From NCBI RefSeq assembly GCF_024171955.1, contig NZ_JAMTCS010000013.1, positions 124,001-188,000 on the forward strand: 64,000 bases of DNA, written 5' to 3'. The stretch is from Promicromonospora thailandica (GTDB taxonomy: Bacteria > Actinomycetota > Actinomycetes > Actinomycetales > Cellulomonadaceae). This document shows positions 11,032 to 57,572 of this stretch, piece after piece. How positions within the stretch are numbered: the first letter of the stretch is position 1; each line of letters begins with the position of its first letter. The position numbers and the translations under genes are program-made. The notes below the pieces were generated by a model. The model worked only from the letters and a program-made list of their open reading frames with translations, was not told the DNA's origin and searched no databases.

Positions 11032-11142
11032 TCTGGCCCCACCTGGCGAGTTCGGTCCGTTGCTCCGAGATCGGTCCGACGAAGGACCGATCTCGGAGCA
11101 ACGGACCGAACAACCGCGCCAACCGGGTGCAGGGGACCGAAG
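11019..11142. repeat. Family A hairpin copy 1 nested in an outer inverted repeat
   Basis: A perfect 27-bp inverted repeat with loop GACGAA spans 11051-11110. It contains TTCGGTCCGTTG near its outer end and GAGATCGGTCC beside the loop, the sequence shared by family A. It is enclosed by a second perfect 13-bp inverted repeat, CTTCGGTCCCCTG (11019-11031) and its complement (11130-11142). It lies between two genes on the same strand, so it could terminate ychJ, but its length and sequence relatedness exceed a simple terminator. Confidence 0.85.
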
Positions 11143-25260: not shown

Positions 25261-25328
25261 CGAGTTCGGTCCCTTGTCTCGAGATCGGTCCATCGATGGA
25301 CCGATCTCGAGGCAAGGGACCGAACTCG
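25261..25328. repeat. Family A hairpin copy 2
   Basis: Inverted repeat with 33-nt arms, one G-T wobble and centre CCATCGATGG. It shares CGAGTTCGGTCC, a following TTG, and GAGATCGGTCC with copy 1. It lies between the SDR gene and the SOS promoter of imuA. Confidence 0.85.
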
Positions 25329-25465: not shown

Positions 25466-26437
25466 ATGACCGCTGCAACCGTCTCCGTCCAGGCCGATGC
25501 CGAACCTGACCCGCAGCCCGACACCCGCACCCGGCACGCGCGGGCGCTCGCGGCCCTGCGGTCGGCCGAGGCGCGCACCGGCGTGCGCGAGCAGACCACC
25601 CCGCAGACCGTGCAGCCGCGGGTCCGGGCGCTGCGGGGCGGGCTCGCGGACGACGCGCCCGGGGCCGCCGCACGCACCCGGGCCGACGACGGGCGCGCCG
25701 CCCGGGCGGGTCTCGCCGCCGACCAGGACGGGCGCGTCCTGCCCGTGCACCCGCACCTCACGCACCTGCTGCCCGACGGCGGCCTGCGGGCCGGCACCAC
25801 CGTGGTGGTCCGCGGGTCGGCGTCGCTGCTGCTGGCACTGCTCGCCGAGGCCTCTTGCGACGGGGCGTGGACCGTGCTGGTCGGGTACCCGTCCGCGGGG
25901 ATCGCCGCGGCGGCCGACGCCGGGTGCGACCTGGAGCGCACGCTCGTGGTGCCGCTGCCCGCCGGGTCGGCGGTGGACGCCCCCGCCGTGCTCGCCGCGC
26001 TGATCGACGGCATGGACGTCGTGGTGATCGGCCCCGAGGTCACCCTGCTGGACCACGACCGCCGCCGGCTGGCGGCCCGCGCCCGCGACCGGGGCACCGT
26101 CCTGCTCCCCTCCGCCCCCCGGGCACTCCCGCTGAGTGCGGGGCATCCGCCTTCTCGGAACGGTTCGACAGGGCGGATGCCCAGCACTCAGCGGGACGCG
26201 GGGTGGGGTGGGGCACAGGTGGTGCTGGAGGCCGTGGGCGGCGGGTGGGACGGGATCGACCACGGGGCGGGCTGGCTGCGGCGCCGGACCCTGCGGGTGC
26301 GGCGCACCGGGCGGGGGAGCGCGGCCCGGCCGCTGGACCTCGACGTCGAGGTGCCCGTGTACCGTGCGGCAGCGCCCACCGAGACGTCCACGCAGCAGAC
26401 GCCCGCCGGGCGCCGTCCGCTGGAGCTGGTGGGATGA
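25466..26437 (+). CDS. imuA: ImuA-like mutasome accessory protein with hairpin-encoded insert
   Basis: 323-aa protein in the position of ImuA (imuA' of mycobacteria), a RecA-fold-like accessory factor of SOS translesion synthesis. Identification rests on context (LexA box upstream, imuB and dnaE2 downstream, ATGA overlap with imuB) and on the RecA-like layout: HPHLTHLLPDGGLRAGTTVVV, where a P-loop would be, then a MDVVVIGPEV strand. The first 90 residues are a charged Ala/Arg-rich region. Residues about 221-243 are encoded by a family B hairpin (26128-26195) that looks inserted in frame between VLLP and WGGAQVVLEAV. Whether the protein tolerates this insert is unknown. Confidence 0.78.
   Translation: MTAATVSVQADAEPDPQPDTRTRHARALAALRSAEARTGVREQTTPQTVQPRVRALRGGLADDAPGAAARTRADDGRAARAGLAADQDGRVLPVHPHLTHLLPDGGLRAGTTVVVRGSASLLLALLAEASCDGAWTVLVGYPSAGIAAAADAGCDLERTLVVPLPAGSAVDAPAVLAALIDGMDVVVIGPEVTLLDHDRRRLAARARDRGTVLLPSAPRALPLSAGHPPSRNGSTGRMPSTQRDAGWGGAQVVLEAVGGGWDGIDHGAGWLRRRTLRVRRTGRGSAARPLDLDVEVPVYRAAAPTETSTQQTPAGRRPLELVG
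26128..26195. repeat. Family B hairpin copy 1, inside imuA
   Basis: 24-bp arms with one mismatch; the left arm begins CCCGCTGAGTGCGGGGCATC. The 20-nt loop runs 26152-26171. It lies wholly within the imuA reading frame and shares the CCCGCTGAGTGCGGG core with the copy at 57.5 kb. Confidence 0.88.
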
Positions 26438-40924: not shown

Positions 40925-41092
40925 GACTGCCTCCTTCCTGTCCGCGCTCACCGAGCGCACCGTGCGGGGCGAGGCCCCGAGAGCTGGCCGGTCAGCGAGC
41001 GCCGCCTGCAGGGCTGTCTCGATGACCGTGCGCCGAGCATGACATGCCCGCCCGGCGGCCCGCACATGTTTTTCCGCCTGGTCTGTCGTGAC

Positions 41093-41170
41093 GCCGTCGA
41101 GGTCGGCTCGTTGTGGCGAGATCGGTCCAGGCCTGTGCCGACCTCGCCACAACAGGCCGACCTCGACGGC
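41093..41170. repeat. Family A hairpin copy 3
   Basis: Long inverted repeat: left arm from GCCGTCGAGGTCGGCTCGTT through GAGATCGGTCC, right arm complementary with three mismatches. From GCCGTCGAGG through the right-arm ACAAC it is identical to copy 4 (about 61 nt, same orientation), 1.16 kb away on the other side of the DUF559-like gene. Confidence 0.88.
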
Positions 41171-41186
41171 GGGCAAGGGGGAGGGG

Positions 41187-42158
41187 TCAGACCAGGGGTG
41201 GGAGGAGGGGGTCAGGGCTCGTGCGGGCCTCCGGGGGGAGGTGGCGTCCGAGGCGGGCCACGAGGGCCTGGGCGTCGCGTCGGTCCTTCGCGCTGACGTG
41301 CTCGAGCGTCACGCCCGCCCGGCGGATCGCGGCGTCGCGCGCCTTCTCGCGCATGTACTCCTGGGCGGGGTCGTGACCCGGCCGCACGCCGTCGGGCCGG
41401 TACTTCACCTGGCCGTCGAACTCGATCCCGAGCGCCCACCGGGGGTATCCGAGGTCGGTGTGGAAGATGCCGTGGTCGGTCCGGACCGCCATCTGTGTCA
41501 CGGGCCGGGGCAGACCGGCCCGCAGCATCTCGTACCGGACCCACGTCTCCCAGGCGGACTGGGCGCCGGCGTCGCCCAGCGTGACGACCCGCACCGCTCG
41601 CCGGACGCCCCGCCGGCCGGTGCGGGCCTGGAGCATCGCGAGCAGGTCGTCACGGTCGGCACCGAGCCGCAGCGCCGAGTCGACGACGACGAGCGCCTCG
41701 AGCGGGTGCAGGGTGAGCGCGCAGTCGACGACCGTGCGGAGCAGCGACGTCACCGGCAGCCCGGCGGCGGTGGTGCGATCCGTGGGGGGCAGATCACCGC
41801 GGTGCCGGACGACGTCGTCCGCCGCGCGGGCGGAGGCCCGGTAGCCCTGGTAGAGGTGTGTGCGGTCCGGCACCGTCCAGACGCGGCAGCCCAGGAGCAG
41901 GGCTGCGGTCGCATGGCTGAACACATGGTCGGCACGCAGCTGCGCGTGCAGGGCGCGGGCGCACGCCAGCGCCCGGTTCCGTCGCTCGCGTGGACCTGCG
42001 GCGGGACCGTCGGTCCGGATGCTCCCGACCGCGCAGTAGGCACCCCGGCGCACCCGGACGATGTCGCCGCTGCGGCGGTCCCTGACGAGCTGGTTCCGGT
42101 CACGCTCGGCGGAGAGCACGACGGAGGGGATGACGACGGGCGGAAGCTCTGGGCTCAT
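41187..42158 (-). CDS. AbiEi/DUF559-like protein (Vsr-fold nuclease candidate)
   Basis: 323-aa protein. The N-terminal part (about residues 15-75) resembles the winged-helix AbiEi antitoxin-type domain (LVRDRRSGDIVRVRRGAYCA). A middle region (FSHATAALLLG, TTAAGLPVTSLLRTVVDCA) is typical of this actinobacterial family. The C-terminal part (about 225-310) fits the DUF559/Vsr endonuclease fold, with TDLGYPRWALGIEFDGQVKY and a later KARDAAIRRAGV. Asp-x-Gly-Tyr-Pro followed by Glu-Phe-Asp-Gly is the expected PD-(D/E)xK-like core. The gene is flanked by direct copies of a family A hairpin. No partner toxin is beside it. Function unknown. Confidence 0.72.
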   Translation of the reverse strand: MSPELPPVVIPSVVLSAERDRNQLVRDRRSGDIVRVRRGAYCAVGSIRTDGPAAGPRERRNRALACARALHAQLRADHVFSHATAALLLGCRVWTVPDRTHLYQGYRASARAADDVVRHRGDLPPTDRTTAAGLPVTSLLRTVVDCALTLHPLEALVVVDSALRLGADRDDLLAMLQARTGRRGVRRAVRVVTLGDAGAQSAWETWVRYEMLRAGLPRPVTQMAVRTDHGIFHTDLGYPRWALGIEFDGQVKYRPDGVRPGHDPAQEYMREKARDAAIRRAGVTLEHVSAKDRRDAQALVARLGRHLPPEARTSPDPLLPPLV

Positions 42159-42254
42159 CCCCTGAGTGCATCAGCACCGGCCCCGCGCGGGGGTCGTCAG
42201 GCGAACCCTGTGGACAGGCATCACCCTGTGGTTCCTCTCCGGCCCAGCCGTGGC

Positions 42255-42330
42255 GCCGTCGAGGTCGGCTCGTTGTGGCGAGATCGGTCCAGGCCTGTGC
42301 CGACCTCGCCACAACGAGCCGACCTCGGCG
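42255..42330. repeat. Family A hairpin copy 4
   Basis: Core arms GAGGTCGGCTCGTTGTGGCG and complement (42261-42326). Same left arm, GAGATCGGTCC element and loop as copy 3. It lies 20 nt beyond the stop codon of the kinase gene on the minus strand and so could also end that transcript. Confidence 0.88.
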
Positions 42331-42349
42331 CAGCAACCAGCCCAGAGGC

Positions 42350-44656
42350 TCAGTTGTTCCAGGGGAGGGCGTCCTCCAGGGACTTCCACAGGGAGTCGCG
42401 CACGTCGTCGGTGGTGTCCTGGACGCCCTGCTCGAAGTCCTCCTGGAGCTGCTCGCGCTGCTCCTGCAGGGAGTCGCGCGCGTCCTGCGTGACCTGCTGG
42501 GCGTAGCCCACCACGCCCTGCACGGCGATCACGATCACCCAGACCACCACGACCAGCCAGAACGGCCAGGTCCGGCCGCCGCGCCGGGTCCGCACCGCAC
42601 GGAACAGGTTGACGATCGCCGAGGTCACGATGCCCAGCAGCGGGATCGACAGCTCCGCCAGGCGCGGCGCCCACACCGGGTCGAGGTTCAGCAGCACCAC
42701 TCCGAGGTCGCCGAGCGCGGCGAACAGCGGCAGCGCGGCGGCGTTCGGCATCACGTCGAACCCCGGCAGCAGGCGCACGAGCTGGTAGACGGCCAGCGCG
42801 AGCAGGATGCGCGGGATCCAGCCGGCCAGTGTCGCCACCACACCGAACCCGCCGCCGGTGTCGCGGCGCTGGTCGTCGCGGGAGCGCGCGGGGTCGCGCG
42901 CGCCGCGGGAGTCCTCGCGCAGGTCGTCGTCGCGACGGGTGGGTGCCGGGGCGGGTGGCTGGGGTCGTGCGGCGGGCTGCGGTGCGGTCGCGGGGCCGGG
43001 CATCGGGCCGGGCGCCGTGGCGGACGCCGGGACCGGCCGGGTCCCGGACGTCTGGCCCTGCATCATCCGACCCGGCGGCGGCCCCGGCCGGAACGCCGGC
43101 GCCACCTGCGTGGCCTGCTGGTGGGTGACCGGGGCCGTGCGCCGGGTCGGGTCGGCCGCCGGGCGCGGGGGAGCGGGCGTCGTCGGCACGCCGGGCAGCG
43201 GCAGGCCGTGGCGCTGCCGGTAGGCGACCCAGCCGTCGTAGGTGTCGGCGTAGCCCTCGGGCGTGAACGCCGGGGCCCAGCGCATCGCGGCCCAGAGGTA
43301 GTCCTTGATCTCGGCGGGGGCGCGCCCGCCGGCCCGCTGCGGCCCGACGGCGGACAGGTACACCGAGATGACCTCCGTCGCGGCGCCGTCGAACCCGTCG
43401 CCGTGCACCTGGTGCAGCCGGCCCATGAGCTGCTGGTCGTAGACCAGGTTGGTCATGGGCTCGCCCTGCTGCACCGGGTTGCTCGCGAGGGGGCTGGTGG
43501 GCGCGACGGCGCCCGTGGGCGCACCGCTGCCGGTCAGCACCTCGGTGACCAGCCCGCGCTCGACGGTCGTGGCGTCGGCGGCGGCCAGCAGCGACGGGTC
43601 GAGGCCCGCTCCGCCGGCGGAGAGCTCCGCGACCGTCCGCGACAGGTTGTGCAGCGGTGGCCGGTCCTCGGGCCGGTGCCGCGTCATGGCCAGCACGAGC
43701 GGCAGCAGCCGCTGGTCGAGCGGTCCGACGTCGGCCGGCGTGAGGTCGCGCCCCGCGAAGTTGAGGTCGTTCGGCAGCTGTCCCGTGGCGAGGAAGATCA
43801 GCAGCAGACCCAGGCTGAACACGTCCGAGCGGGCGTGGGGCTTGCGCACGAACAGCTCGGGCGCCATGTAGGAGATGGTGCCGGCCGCGTGCGTCGACGT
43901 GCTGGTGCCGTGCCCCTTGGCGATGCCGAGGTCGATCAGCACGTACCGGTCGGGCGCCGCGATGATGTTCGCCGGCTTCACGTCGCGGTGCAGGAAGTGC
44001 TCCTCCTGGAGCACGGCGAGGGCGTCGAGCACGTCGTCGGCGACGCGCAGCACCTCGTGCGGCGGCAGGGGACCCTCGGCGGACACCCGCTGGGCGAGCG
44101 TCGGCCCGGGCACCAGCTCCATGGCGAACCAGGGCGTCGCCGAGCGCAGGTCGGCGGACACCAGCCGCGGGAAGCCCCGCCCGGCCAGCCGGTCCAGCAG
44201 CGCGGCCTCACCCACGAACCGGTCCAGCGAGCCGTGCTCGGCGTTCGTCAGCACCTTGAGCGCCACCTCGCCGCCCTGTCCGAGGGCGCGGTACACGTGC
44301 GCGAACCCGCCGTGCCCGAGCGACCCCACGAGCTGGTACGGGCCGAGCACCTCGCCCGTGGCGGGGATGCGCGGCGGGGCCGGCGTCGTCGGCGCGGCGG
44401 ACGACGGCGCCCCGGGAACCCCCGGCCCGACCGGACCCGACGGCACGGCGCCGGTCCGCGGGACACCCGCCTGGGCCGAGCCCGTCCGTCCGGCGGGCGT
44501 CTGCGGTCCCGACGGCGCCACGACCCGGGTCGGCGACGTCTGCGGCGGCATCACCCGGGCGGTGCCGGGCGGGGGCACGACGGCGGTCCGGTCGACGCCC
44601 CGGGCCGGCGGTCCGGCGGGGCCTACGGCCGGCGTACGGGTGGTCTCGTCGGACAA
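42350..44656 (-). CDS. PknB-type Ser/Thr kinase with C-terminal membrane domain
   Basis: 768-aa kinase. A Pro/Thr-rich N-terminus (1-95) precedes the kinase domain (about 100-370): GHGGFAHVYRAL, EVALKVLTN, FLHRDVKPANIIAAP, IDLGIAKGH and ISYMAPELF. A middle domain (about 425-490) and a disordered Pro/Arg linker follow. The terminal membrane domain (about 610-725; IPRILLALAVYQLVRLLPGF) ends in an acidic amphipathic tail rich in Gln/Asp/Glu. The membrane domain and tail are closely matched by the next gene upstream, which has no kinase. Leader about 40 nt with GAGGAGCC. Confidence 0.92.
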   Translation of the reverse strand: MSDETTRTPAVGPAGPPARGVDRTAVVPPPGTARVMPPQTSPTRVVAPSGPQTPAGRTGSAQAGVPRTGAVPSGPVGPGVPGAPSSAAPTTPAPPRIPATGEVLGPYQLVGSLGHGGFAHVYRALGQGGEVALKVLTNAEHGSLDRFVGEAALLDRLAGRGFPRLVSADLRSATPWFAMELVPGPTLAQRVSAEGPLPPHEVLRVADDVLDALAVLQEEHFLHRDVKPANIIAAPDRYVLIDLGIAKGHGTSTSTHAAGTISYMAPELFVRKPHARSDVFSLGLLLIFLATGQLPNDLNFAGRDLTPADVGPLDQRLLPLVLAMTRHRPEDRPPLHNLSRTVAELSAGGAGLDPSLLAAADATTVERGLVTEVLTGSGAPTGAVAPTSPLASNPVQQGEPMTNLVYDQQLMGRLHQVHGDGFDGAATEVISVYLSAVGPQRAGGRAPAEIKDYLWAAMRWAPAFTPEGYADTYDGWVAYRQRHGLPLPGVPTTPAPPRPAADPTRRTAPVTHQQATQVAPAFRPGPPPGRMMQGQTSGTRPVPASATAPGPMPGPATAPQPAARPQPPAPAPTRRDDDLREDSRGARDPARSRDDQRRDTGGGFGVVATLAGWIPRILLALAVYQLVRLLPGFDVMPNAAALPLFAALGDLGVVLLNLDPVWAPRLAELSIPLLGIVTSAIVNLFRAVRTRRGGRTWPFWLVVVVWVIVIAVQGVVGYAQQVTQDARDSLQEQREQLQEDFEQGVQDTTDDVRDSLWKSLEDALPWNN

Positions 44657-50599: not shown

Positions 50600-50617
50600 C
50601 GCGGGAGAGTCCGCTGG

Positions 50618-50671
50618 GAGAACGACCTGGGGTACCGGATCCGACGTGATCCGGTACCCCAGGTCGTTCTC
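50618..50671. terminator. 24-bp perfect hairpin between convergent genes
   Basis: Arms GAGAACGACCTGGGGTACCG(GATC) and exact complement, loop CGACGT. It sits between the convergent LLM and HNH gene ends and would serve both as terminator. Long and perfect like families A and B but with unrelated sequence. Confidence 0.8.
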
Positions 50672-50685
50672 GAGGCCCACCCGCG

Positions 50686-51565: not shown

Positions 51566-52384
51566 TCAAATCTCCGACGTCGCCCGGGACCGCGCGAGCT
51601 CCTCCTGCACCGCGGAGAGCTGCGCCCGGATCGCCCGCAGCTCGTCCATGACCTCCGCGTCGGACCTCTCCTCGTGCTCGGCCAGGTCGTCGATGCTCTC
51701 CATGCCGCTGACGACCACGGCGATGAAGAGGTTCAGCACGGCGAACGAGACCACGAGGATGAACACGACGAAGAAGATCCAGGCCATGGGCTCGTGCACC
51801 ATCACCTCGTCGGCGATGTCCGGCCAGGCCTCGCCGGTCATGACCTGGAACAGGGTGAACGCCGTCGTCCCGAGGTCGCCGAAGTGGTCCGGCGCGATCG
51901 CGCCGTAGAGGTTGGTCGCGATCACCACGGACACGTACATGACCAGGACCAGCAGCGCGCCGACCGACCCCATGCCGGGCACGGCCGCGACCAGCCCGTT
52001 CACCACCCGCTTCATCGCGGGCACGGAGTCGGCCAGGCGCAGCACGCGCAGCACCCGCAGGGCGCGCAGCACCGCCAGCGGGCCGGTCGCGGGGATCAGG
52101 GCGATCCCCACCACGAGCAGGTCGAAAACGCTCCACGGGTCCCGGAAGAACCGGAACCCGTGGGCGAGCAGCCGCAGCGCGATCTCGGTGACGAAGAACC
52201 AGAGCATCGCGTCGTCGACGACCTGCAGCACCTGGTCCACGGGGCCGTCGACGATCGACGTCTCCAGACCCAGCACGACGGCGTTGGCGATGATCACGCC
52301 CAGCACCGCCCGCTGGAACCCGGGGTGCTCCACCAACCCCCGCAGGCGCGCTCGAATCGATACGTCACCGCCGCCGACCGACAT
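51566..52384 (-). CDS. Voltage-gated sodium channel, NaChBac-like
   Basis: 272-aa one-domain six-helix ion channel. S1-S3 include VVLGLETSIV and FDLLVVGIALIP. S4 carries regularly spaced arginines (LRALRVLRVLRLAD). The pore loop TLFQVMTGEAWPDI aligns with the NaChBac filter TLFQVVTLESWASG, keeping the selectivity Glu but with Gly and Ala beside it. S6 is FILVVSFAVLNLFIAVVVSGM, followed by a C-terminal coiled coil (about 235-265) that tetramerises such channels. Likely conducts Na+; the changed filter could alter selectivity. ATG preceded by AAAGGAG. Confidence 0.92.
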   Translation of the reverse strand: MSVGGGDVSIRARLRGLVEHPGFQRAVLGVIIANAVVLGLETSIVDGPVDQVLQVVDDAMLWFFVTEIALRLLAHGFRFFRDPWSVFDLLVVGIALIPATGPLAVLRALRVLRVLRLADSVPAMKRVVNGLVAAVPGMGSVGALLVLVMYVSVVIATNLYGAIAPDHFGDLGTTAFTLFQVMTGEAWPDIADEVMVHEPMAWIFFVVFILVVSFAVLNLFIAVVVSGMESIDDLAEHEERSDAEVMDELRAIRAQLSAVQEELARSRATSEI

Positions 52385-54539: not shown

Positions 54540-54613
54540 GCTCCTCTTCGAGACCGAGGTTGCTTCTCTTTGAACGGGCGCAAAGAGAAGCAACCTCGGT
54601 CTCGAAGAGGAGC
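54540..54613. repeat. 33-bp perfect hairpin
   Basis: Arms begin GCTCCTCTTCGAGACCGAGG and are perfectly complementary over 33 bp, with an 8-nt loop AACGGGCG. It lies 11 nt beyond the DUF1684 stop codon. The longest perfect hairpin in the window. It is AT-richer than its surroundings and only loosely similar to family A. Confidence 0.88.
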
Positions 54614-57507: not shown

Positions 57508-57572
57508 CCGCTGAGTGCGGGATCTTCGCCCTTTTTCGTGTGCCAGGAGGGCAAGTATCCCGCACTCAGCGG
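57508..57572. repeat. Family B hairpin copy 2
   Basis: Core arms CCGCTGAGTGCGGGAT and exact complement (57508-57523 and 57557-57572), extended with mismatches towards the loop. Shares CCCGCTGAGTGCGGG with the copy inside imuA, followed by TC and CGCCC in both. Located 4 nt from the ABC permease stop codon. Confidence 0.88.

Follow-up and report, generated by a model that had tools for sequence, protein, structure and literature searches.

The locus discussed here raises the question of why a gene for an AbiEi-like protein with a fused nuclease domain lies between two direct copies of one long hairpin, and which of the two, the gene or the hairpin, has spread. The window, i.e. the whole stretch of DNA that was analysed, comprises 64,000 nucleotides of the Promicromonospora thailandica genome (positions 124,001 to 188,000 of contig NZ_JAMTCS010000013.1); its features are collected in Table 1. 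The original prediction, made from the letters alone, described about 61 identical nucleotides on both sides of the gene, and this figure is exact: 61 nt at 41093-41153 are repeated in the same orientation at 42255-42315, and the direct repeat extends to 82 nt at 95% identity (41087-41168 versus 42249-42330, with a spacing of 1162).

Table 1. Features of the hairpin-associated gene and of related hairpins (positions within the window).
Feature	Position	Strand	Remarks
Hairpin 1	41093..41170	.	20 bp 3' of gene; core element 41098-41165, CGAGGTCGG...CCGACCTCG, borders set from 18 dispersed copies
Hairpin-associated gene, 323 aa	41187..42158	-	ORF; AbiEi-like N-terminal part fused to PD-(D/E)XK (Vsr/DUF559-like) nuclease domain
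Nuclease core, about residues 202-290	41289..41555	-	from homolog alignment and fold
AbiEi-like region, residues 20-191, with winged-helix DNA-binding domain	41586..42101	-	PADLOC PDLC02231
Hairpin 2	42260..42327	.	about 100 bp 5' of gene start; family of hairpin 1, direct orientation
Interval absent at empty sites of seven Promicromonospora genomes	41077..42357	.	hairpin-gene-hairpin with short flanks
Solo hairpin, family of the G000:C6 paralog	11048..11113	.	unit GAGTTCGGTCCGTTGC
Second solo hairpin, C6-paralog family	25262..25327	.	

The hairpins and the protein

Both repeat copies are near-perfect palindromes that form hairpins of about 68 bp, and as single-stranded DNA they fold at −41.5 kcal/mol with z values of −8.4 and −10.4, no shuffled sequence equalling them. 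Their Rfam matches, to microRNA models and one other, all lie far under the gathering scores, so the hairpins match simply as generic hairpins.

The original prediction gave the protein a Vsr/DUF559-like fold and an AbiEi-like N-terminus, of which the N-terminus and the fold stand, while the name DUF559 is right for the fold and weak for the family. The N-terminal part of about 190 aa matches the AbiEi models of PADLOC in all 31 aligned homologs (1.4e-13 for the window protein). In Pfam, AbiEi_4 was recorded for 17 of these homologs, AbiEi_1 for seven, REase_MTES_1575 for four and DUF559 for two; in the window protein the AbiEi_4 match (residues 20-43) stays under the Pfam threshold, and DUF559 gives no match. 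A Foldseek search with the AF2 model (pLDDT 94.6) recovered AbiEi (6y8q, E 9.5e-5) and the AbiEi-like Rv2827c, together with weak matches to Vsr (1vsr) and to the homing endonuclease I-Bth0305I (3r3p) at a probability of 0.85. The residues E204, D235, E246, D248 and K252 are invariant in the alignment of the 31 homologs. A sequence-profile search of solved structures returned spurious S20 matches only.

With the AbiEi protein of type IV AbiE toxin-antitoxin systems the window protein shares its N-terminal part, in sequence and in fold, but it carries in addition a fused C-terminal nuclease domain, hairpins that match one another occur on both sides of the gene and genome-wide, and no AbiEii toxin was detected among the four nearby window genes tested (Pkinase, RIO1, Cys/Met PLP enzyme and AsnC regulator). 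The likeness to the Vsr, DUF559 and MTES_1575 nucleases and to EDxHD homing endonucleases such as I-Bth0305I lies in a PD-(D/E)XK-like C-terminal domain of weak fold similarity, whereas the gene is not inserted in a target and has repeated palindromes on both sides; its active-site pattern, E...D...ExD...K, differs from that of the Vsr/EDxHD set as well. Rpn proteins (PDDEXK_2, formerly transposase_31) are also PD-(D/E)XK nucleases linked to DNA mobility, but they are not known to have an AbiEi domain or dispersed hairpins of their own.

Hairpin families matched to their genes

Long hairpins are concentrated beside homologs of the gene. In a first set of forty 19.5-kb loci around homologs from related genera, 63 hairpins lie at most 700 bp from the gene, against 35 in all the remaining sequence of the 40 loci, and in another set, comprising 80 named loci from genomes that are partly those of the first, the density is 0.92 hairpins per kb beside the gene versus 0.056. 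At least one hairpin was found in 58 of these 80 loci and hairpins on both sides in 36, with no strict hairpin near the gene in 22; the flanking of other genes of the family by hairpins, which the original prediction had proposed as a check for the window hairpins, is seen in these proportions, with hairpins that are each gene's own. Typically, one hairpin is placed about 230 bp upstream and one about 50 bp downstream of the gene. Matched hairpin pairs 0.3-3 kb apart straddle the gene in 33 cases and do not in six, all six being close to the gene. Two hairpins of the window family also occur 1 kb apart around a GNAT-like ORF, which is not the nuclease gene (G000:C9:51185-51259 and 52223-52291, L006; G000 is the host genome), so being bracketed does not by itself set the cassette apart.

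Many of these hairpins are built in one way, each arm carrying a short motif, about 11 nt and the motif again, followed by a loop and the inverted copy. In 36 of the 63 flanking hairpins the motif is repeated exactly 19 nt further on, every other lag being found at most twice, and the same lag was recovered in 68 of 100 hairpins of the second set. Lineages differ in the letters of the motif (GAGGTCGG, GAGATCTGG, GGTCGGCA, TCGGTAC and others), and the stems covary, with eight pairs altered on both sides (30 cells; none of 500 shuffles). Single motif units (singlets) occur near solo hairpins. In G012:C32 (L272, around 1500-1850), a tandem array of half-units (GACTTCGGTCGGTTGCAC...) with a 31-nt period runs into a complete hairpin, and perhaps it shows how palindromes arise or are amplified locally.

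The hairpins change together with the protein. The two hairpins of one locus have a mean identity of 0.89 versus 0.67 between loci, and hairpin similarity tracks protein similarity with a Mantel r of 0.77 (0 of 2000 permutations), a correlation into which species relatedness also feeds. Within the host genome the paralogs C13, C6 and C14 are each accompanied by different hairpins, and no hairpin was found at the distant paralog C1. The association of gene and hairpin is specific, the flanks are matched, and the hairpin changes with the protein.

This pairing extends beyond the related genera. In a wider survey, which covered 198 genomes of the phylum, homologs were located at 29 loci outside the family, in other orders and classes, and 12 of these loci have a matched pair of upstream and downstream hairpins at 0.72 or above, the between-locus maximum being 0.68, and the 19-nt grammar is absent from most loci at this distance. 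In G197, which belongs to another class of the same phylum, a hairpin chosen solely for its position beside the homolog gave 78 matches listed, representing about 40 sites, and five other genomes yielded no match. Every lineage that was tested possesses scattered extragenic hairpins of its own.

Presence of the gene and abundance of its hairpins are correlated. Some twenty relatives of the window hairpin, or more, are found at other places in the host genome, and the hairpin family of a gene generally comprises roughly 5-40 intergenic copies per genome. Four families were measured over 13 congeneric genomes, copy number being expressed as BLAST matches that include both strands of each palindrome, with at most 40 candidates scored per genome; the median matches listed with versus without the cognate gene were 28 and 2, 48 and 26.5, 62 and 0, and 68 and 11.5 (one-sided p of 0.002-0.007 per family, relatedness ignored). 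The compared genomes are related, so the Mantel and copy-number tests are not fully independent. Clustering, matched pairs, the Mantel correlation and copy number together uphold the earlier idea that the gene is tied to its hairpin family.

Hairpin presence needs no gene now, since four genomes (G009, G005, G002 and G010) contain many C6-type hairpins without a gene at the C6 site. G009 has 49 matches listed of C6-type hairpins, with up to 99% identity, and a search there recovered no gene closely homologous to that of C6, which may reflect either recent loss of the gene or upkeep of the hairpins by another enzyme. In G004 the gene of the fourth site (G004:C23:305356-306266, L259) is seemingly split in two frames and 63 matches listed of its hairpin remain; possibly, this gene was recently broken with its hairpin population intact.

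Persistence of the gene and apparent spread of the hairpin

The original prediction suggested a mobile cassette of about 1.2 kb, and current mobility of this unit is not supported. The gene occupies one syntenic site in six of the 13 congeneric genomes, with the neighbourhood in common, while in the other seven the site is cleanly empty, the neighbours being joined by 6-68 bp (the state of G010 rests on its assembly, since the gene is on one contig and the neighbours are partly on another). An empty site that retains one hairpin, which had been proposed as a trace of movement, was not seen: six of the seven empty sites have no long hairpin, and the seventh, in G006, has a hairpin of another family. 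This also led us to reject a homing endonuclease gene inserted in its own target. The G006 hairpin (G006:C1:1580220-1580289, L167), TGTCAGACGTACAGGTCACC, belongs to a family that is also present in L044, L055 and L062.

In the protein tree the orthologs from the C6 site group as a clade, as do those from the C14 site, those from the fourth site and five of the six at the window site, the gene of the host genome itself being placed just outside the window-site clade with modest support; the tree of the flanks is poorly resolved. No near-identical copy of the gene exists in the host genome, where the best paralog has 65% identity, and none was found on plasmids or phages. Since the site is shared and the presence is patchy, these data suggest that the patchy distribution of the cassette reflects losses.

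The solo hairpins show a different kind of history. Aligned copies have sharp borders within unrelated flanks (CGAGGTCGG...CCGACCTCG in the host genome and ATCTTCGCTCC...GGAGCGAAGAT in G197), and only five of 67 solos lie in predicted coding DNA, against a background that is 81% coding. Neither target-site duplication, nor any other scar of insertion, nor insertion into existing inverted repeats was detected in 19, 17 and 39 solo copies, the first two sets being clean and the third (C6) set containing many mis-set borders. When two strains of P. iranensis were compared over eighteen solos (the last four largely left out, and at least one without a flank match), most solos with alignable flanks were common to both strains and no recent insertion was detected. 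When species are compared, some solos prove to be present or absent at orthologous gaps, the flanks being too diverged for exact junctions to be available. Any movement of the solo hairpins is slow, and it appears that the hairpin, not the gene, has spread. The 1-kb insertions that relatives have opposite some other hairpins proved to be ordinary genes.

Explanations of the gene-hairpin association

REP-associated transposases have been described as single-copy, vertically inherited, plasmid-free genes residing beside palindromes, in systems (REPtrons, REP/REPIN-RAYT) where repeats are commoner in the presence of the gene and gene and repeat form co-evolved pairs (PMC8266576, PMC8049555, PMC3733652). 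The gene of the window is likewise single-copy, vertically inherited and flanked by its repeats, its palindromes are dispersed extragenically and commoner with the gene (apart from the C6-family exceptions named above), and single-unit singlets occur in both systems. The likeness to REP-associated transposases that the original prediction had drawn is borne out much more strongly than the one locus allowed, by the dispersed families, their copy number and the matched pairs. The enzymes and the repeats themselves are unlike, as an AbiEi part with a PD-(D/E)XK domain stands here in place of the HuH/Y1 fold (TnpA_REP), and the arms of many families carry the motif twice at 19-nt spacing. No consistent GTAG (or CGTC) tag was found beside the stem in the copies listed, the borders being CGAGGTCGG / CCGACCTCG and ATCTTCGCTCC / GGAGCGAAGAT. 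Y1_Tnp (PF01797) is absent from all 13 genomes, the control being positive in five known genomes, and a RAYT or other HuH protein was therefore rejected as the mover of the hairpins. The hairpin-gene system is REPtron-like in its logic and is not a member of the REP/RAYT group.

We consider it probable that the association represents a partnership of repeat and nuclease, in which the role that RAYT plays for REPINs is taken by an unrelated enzyme that would bind and cleave the hairpin. The AbiEi-like winged helix would read the short motif pair; the PD-(D/E)XK domain would cut the hairpin, either extruded as a cruciform or folded as a single strand, or else its borders; and repair or rejoining could, on rare occasions, copy the hairpin to a new intergenic site, the gene staying put. 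A farther-reaching proposal, to which we incline only slightly, is that this is an independent second machinery of the REPIN kind, with an AbiEi-PD-(D/E)XK protein that reads a 19-nt-spaced motif, acts by hydrolytic cleavage rather than HuH chemistry, and has long maintained lineage-specific hairpins in Actinobacteria.

The main rival, which we regard as unlikely, is that the protein is a binder of the repressor or nucleoid type, for which the flanking hairpins serve as operators and the solos as a regulon, the nuclease acting elsewhere or being vestigial and the hairpins spreading by some other means. AbiEi proteins are generally known to repress their own operon by binding inverted repeats, a fixed motif spacing of 19 nt is what paired protein sites would be expected to have, and the hairpins are intergenic. 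However, operators require neither near-perfect 68-bp palindromes with covarying stems nor a copy downstream of the gene, the nuclease residues are invariant, and the sharp-bordered copies in unrelated flanks imply that the element itself was copied. Somewhat less probable still is a selfish or defensive nuclease, toxic or directed against phages, for which the hairpins would be decoys that titrate or guide it, so that hairpin loss or foreign DNA would free its activity. The place of AbiEi in abortive-infection toxin-antitoxin systems and the PADLOC matches agree with such a role, as does a Vsr/DUF559-like protein that has been linked to DNA damage in Caulobacter without a cytosine methylase (PMC12907096); against it, none of the four neighbours tested is an AbiEii toxin, the seven empty sites show the cassette lost or absent with no trace of addiction, and hairpin families persist without the gene in some genomes.

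An ordinary insertion sequence, with the hairpins as terminal repeats, the protein as transposase and the solos as relics, would account for the bracketing of the gene and for the clean empty sites, but we give it very little credence: near-identical genomic copies and copies on plasmids or phages are missing, synteny is conserved and the orthologs of each site form clades apart from one gene, the flanking repeats are direct in 12 cases and inverted in six (seven being undecidable), and target-site duplication is absent at the solos, to which that test applied. Least credible of all is an incidental two-sided match between hairpins that serve as transcription terminators or belong to structured untranslated regions. 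Their intergenic position and G+C-rich composition would suit it, and termination may be a side effect, yet terminators neither repeat 61 identical nucleotides on the two flanks of a gene nor track the protein phylogeny, and they do not form lineage-specific dispersed families.

In open-access PubMed Central, no paper was found in which dispersed palindromes are tied to proteins of the DUF559, AbiEi or Vsr-like kind. If a second machinery of the REPIN kind exists here, it would provide a function for proteins annotated only as DUF559 or AbiEi-domain proteins, and cleavage of the cognate hairpin becomes a concrete prediction for proteins of this type whose present annotation is antitoxin or unknown. 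Among domesticated nucleases linked to populations of genomic palindromes, REP/RAYT is the best known. With a convergent system that occurs in several orders and several classes of Actinomycetota, the question of what the host gains from REP/RAYT could be approached by a comparison that separates what the upkeep of palindromes needs from the traits of HuH chemistry. The partnership would also account for one class of the long hairpins that are dispersed through these genomes, and the paralogs that share a cell but differ in their hairpins represent built-in specificity controls.

Other long hairpin families occur in the window as well. The GTTGAGTGCTGGATATTCGCCC... type, which is without the 19-nt repeat, lies at 26130-26193 and 57508-57572 (also in L045, L046 and L055); its hairpins recur across Promicromonospora genomes, and in one case the hairpin directly follows a stop codon and is missing in relatives. 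Two further families, of the GAACGACCTGGGGTACC and TTCGAGACCGAGGTTGCTTCTC types, are located at 50614-50675 and 54545-54608 (L048, L053), and hairpins of the TTCGAGACCGAGGTTGCTTCTC type seem to have relatives in other species.
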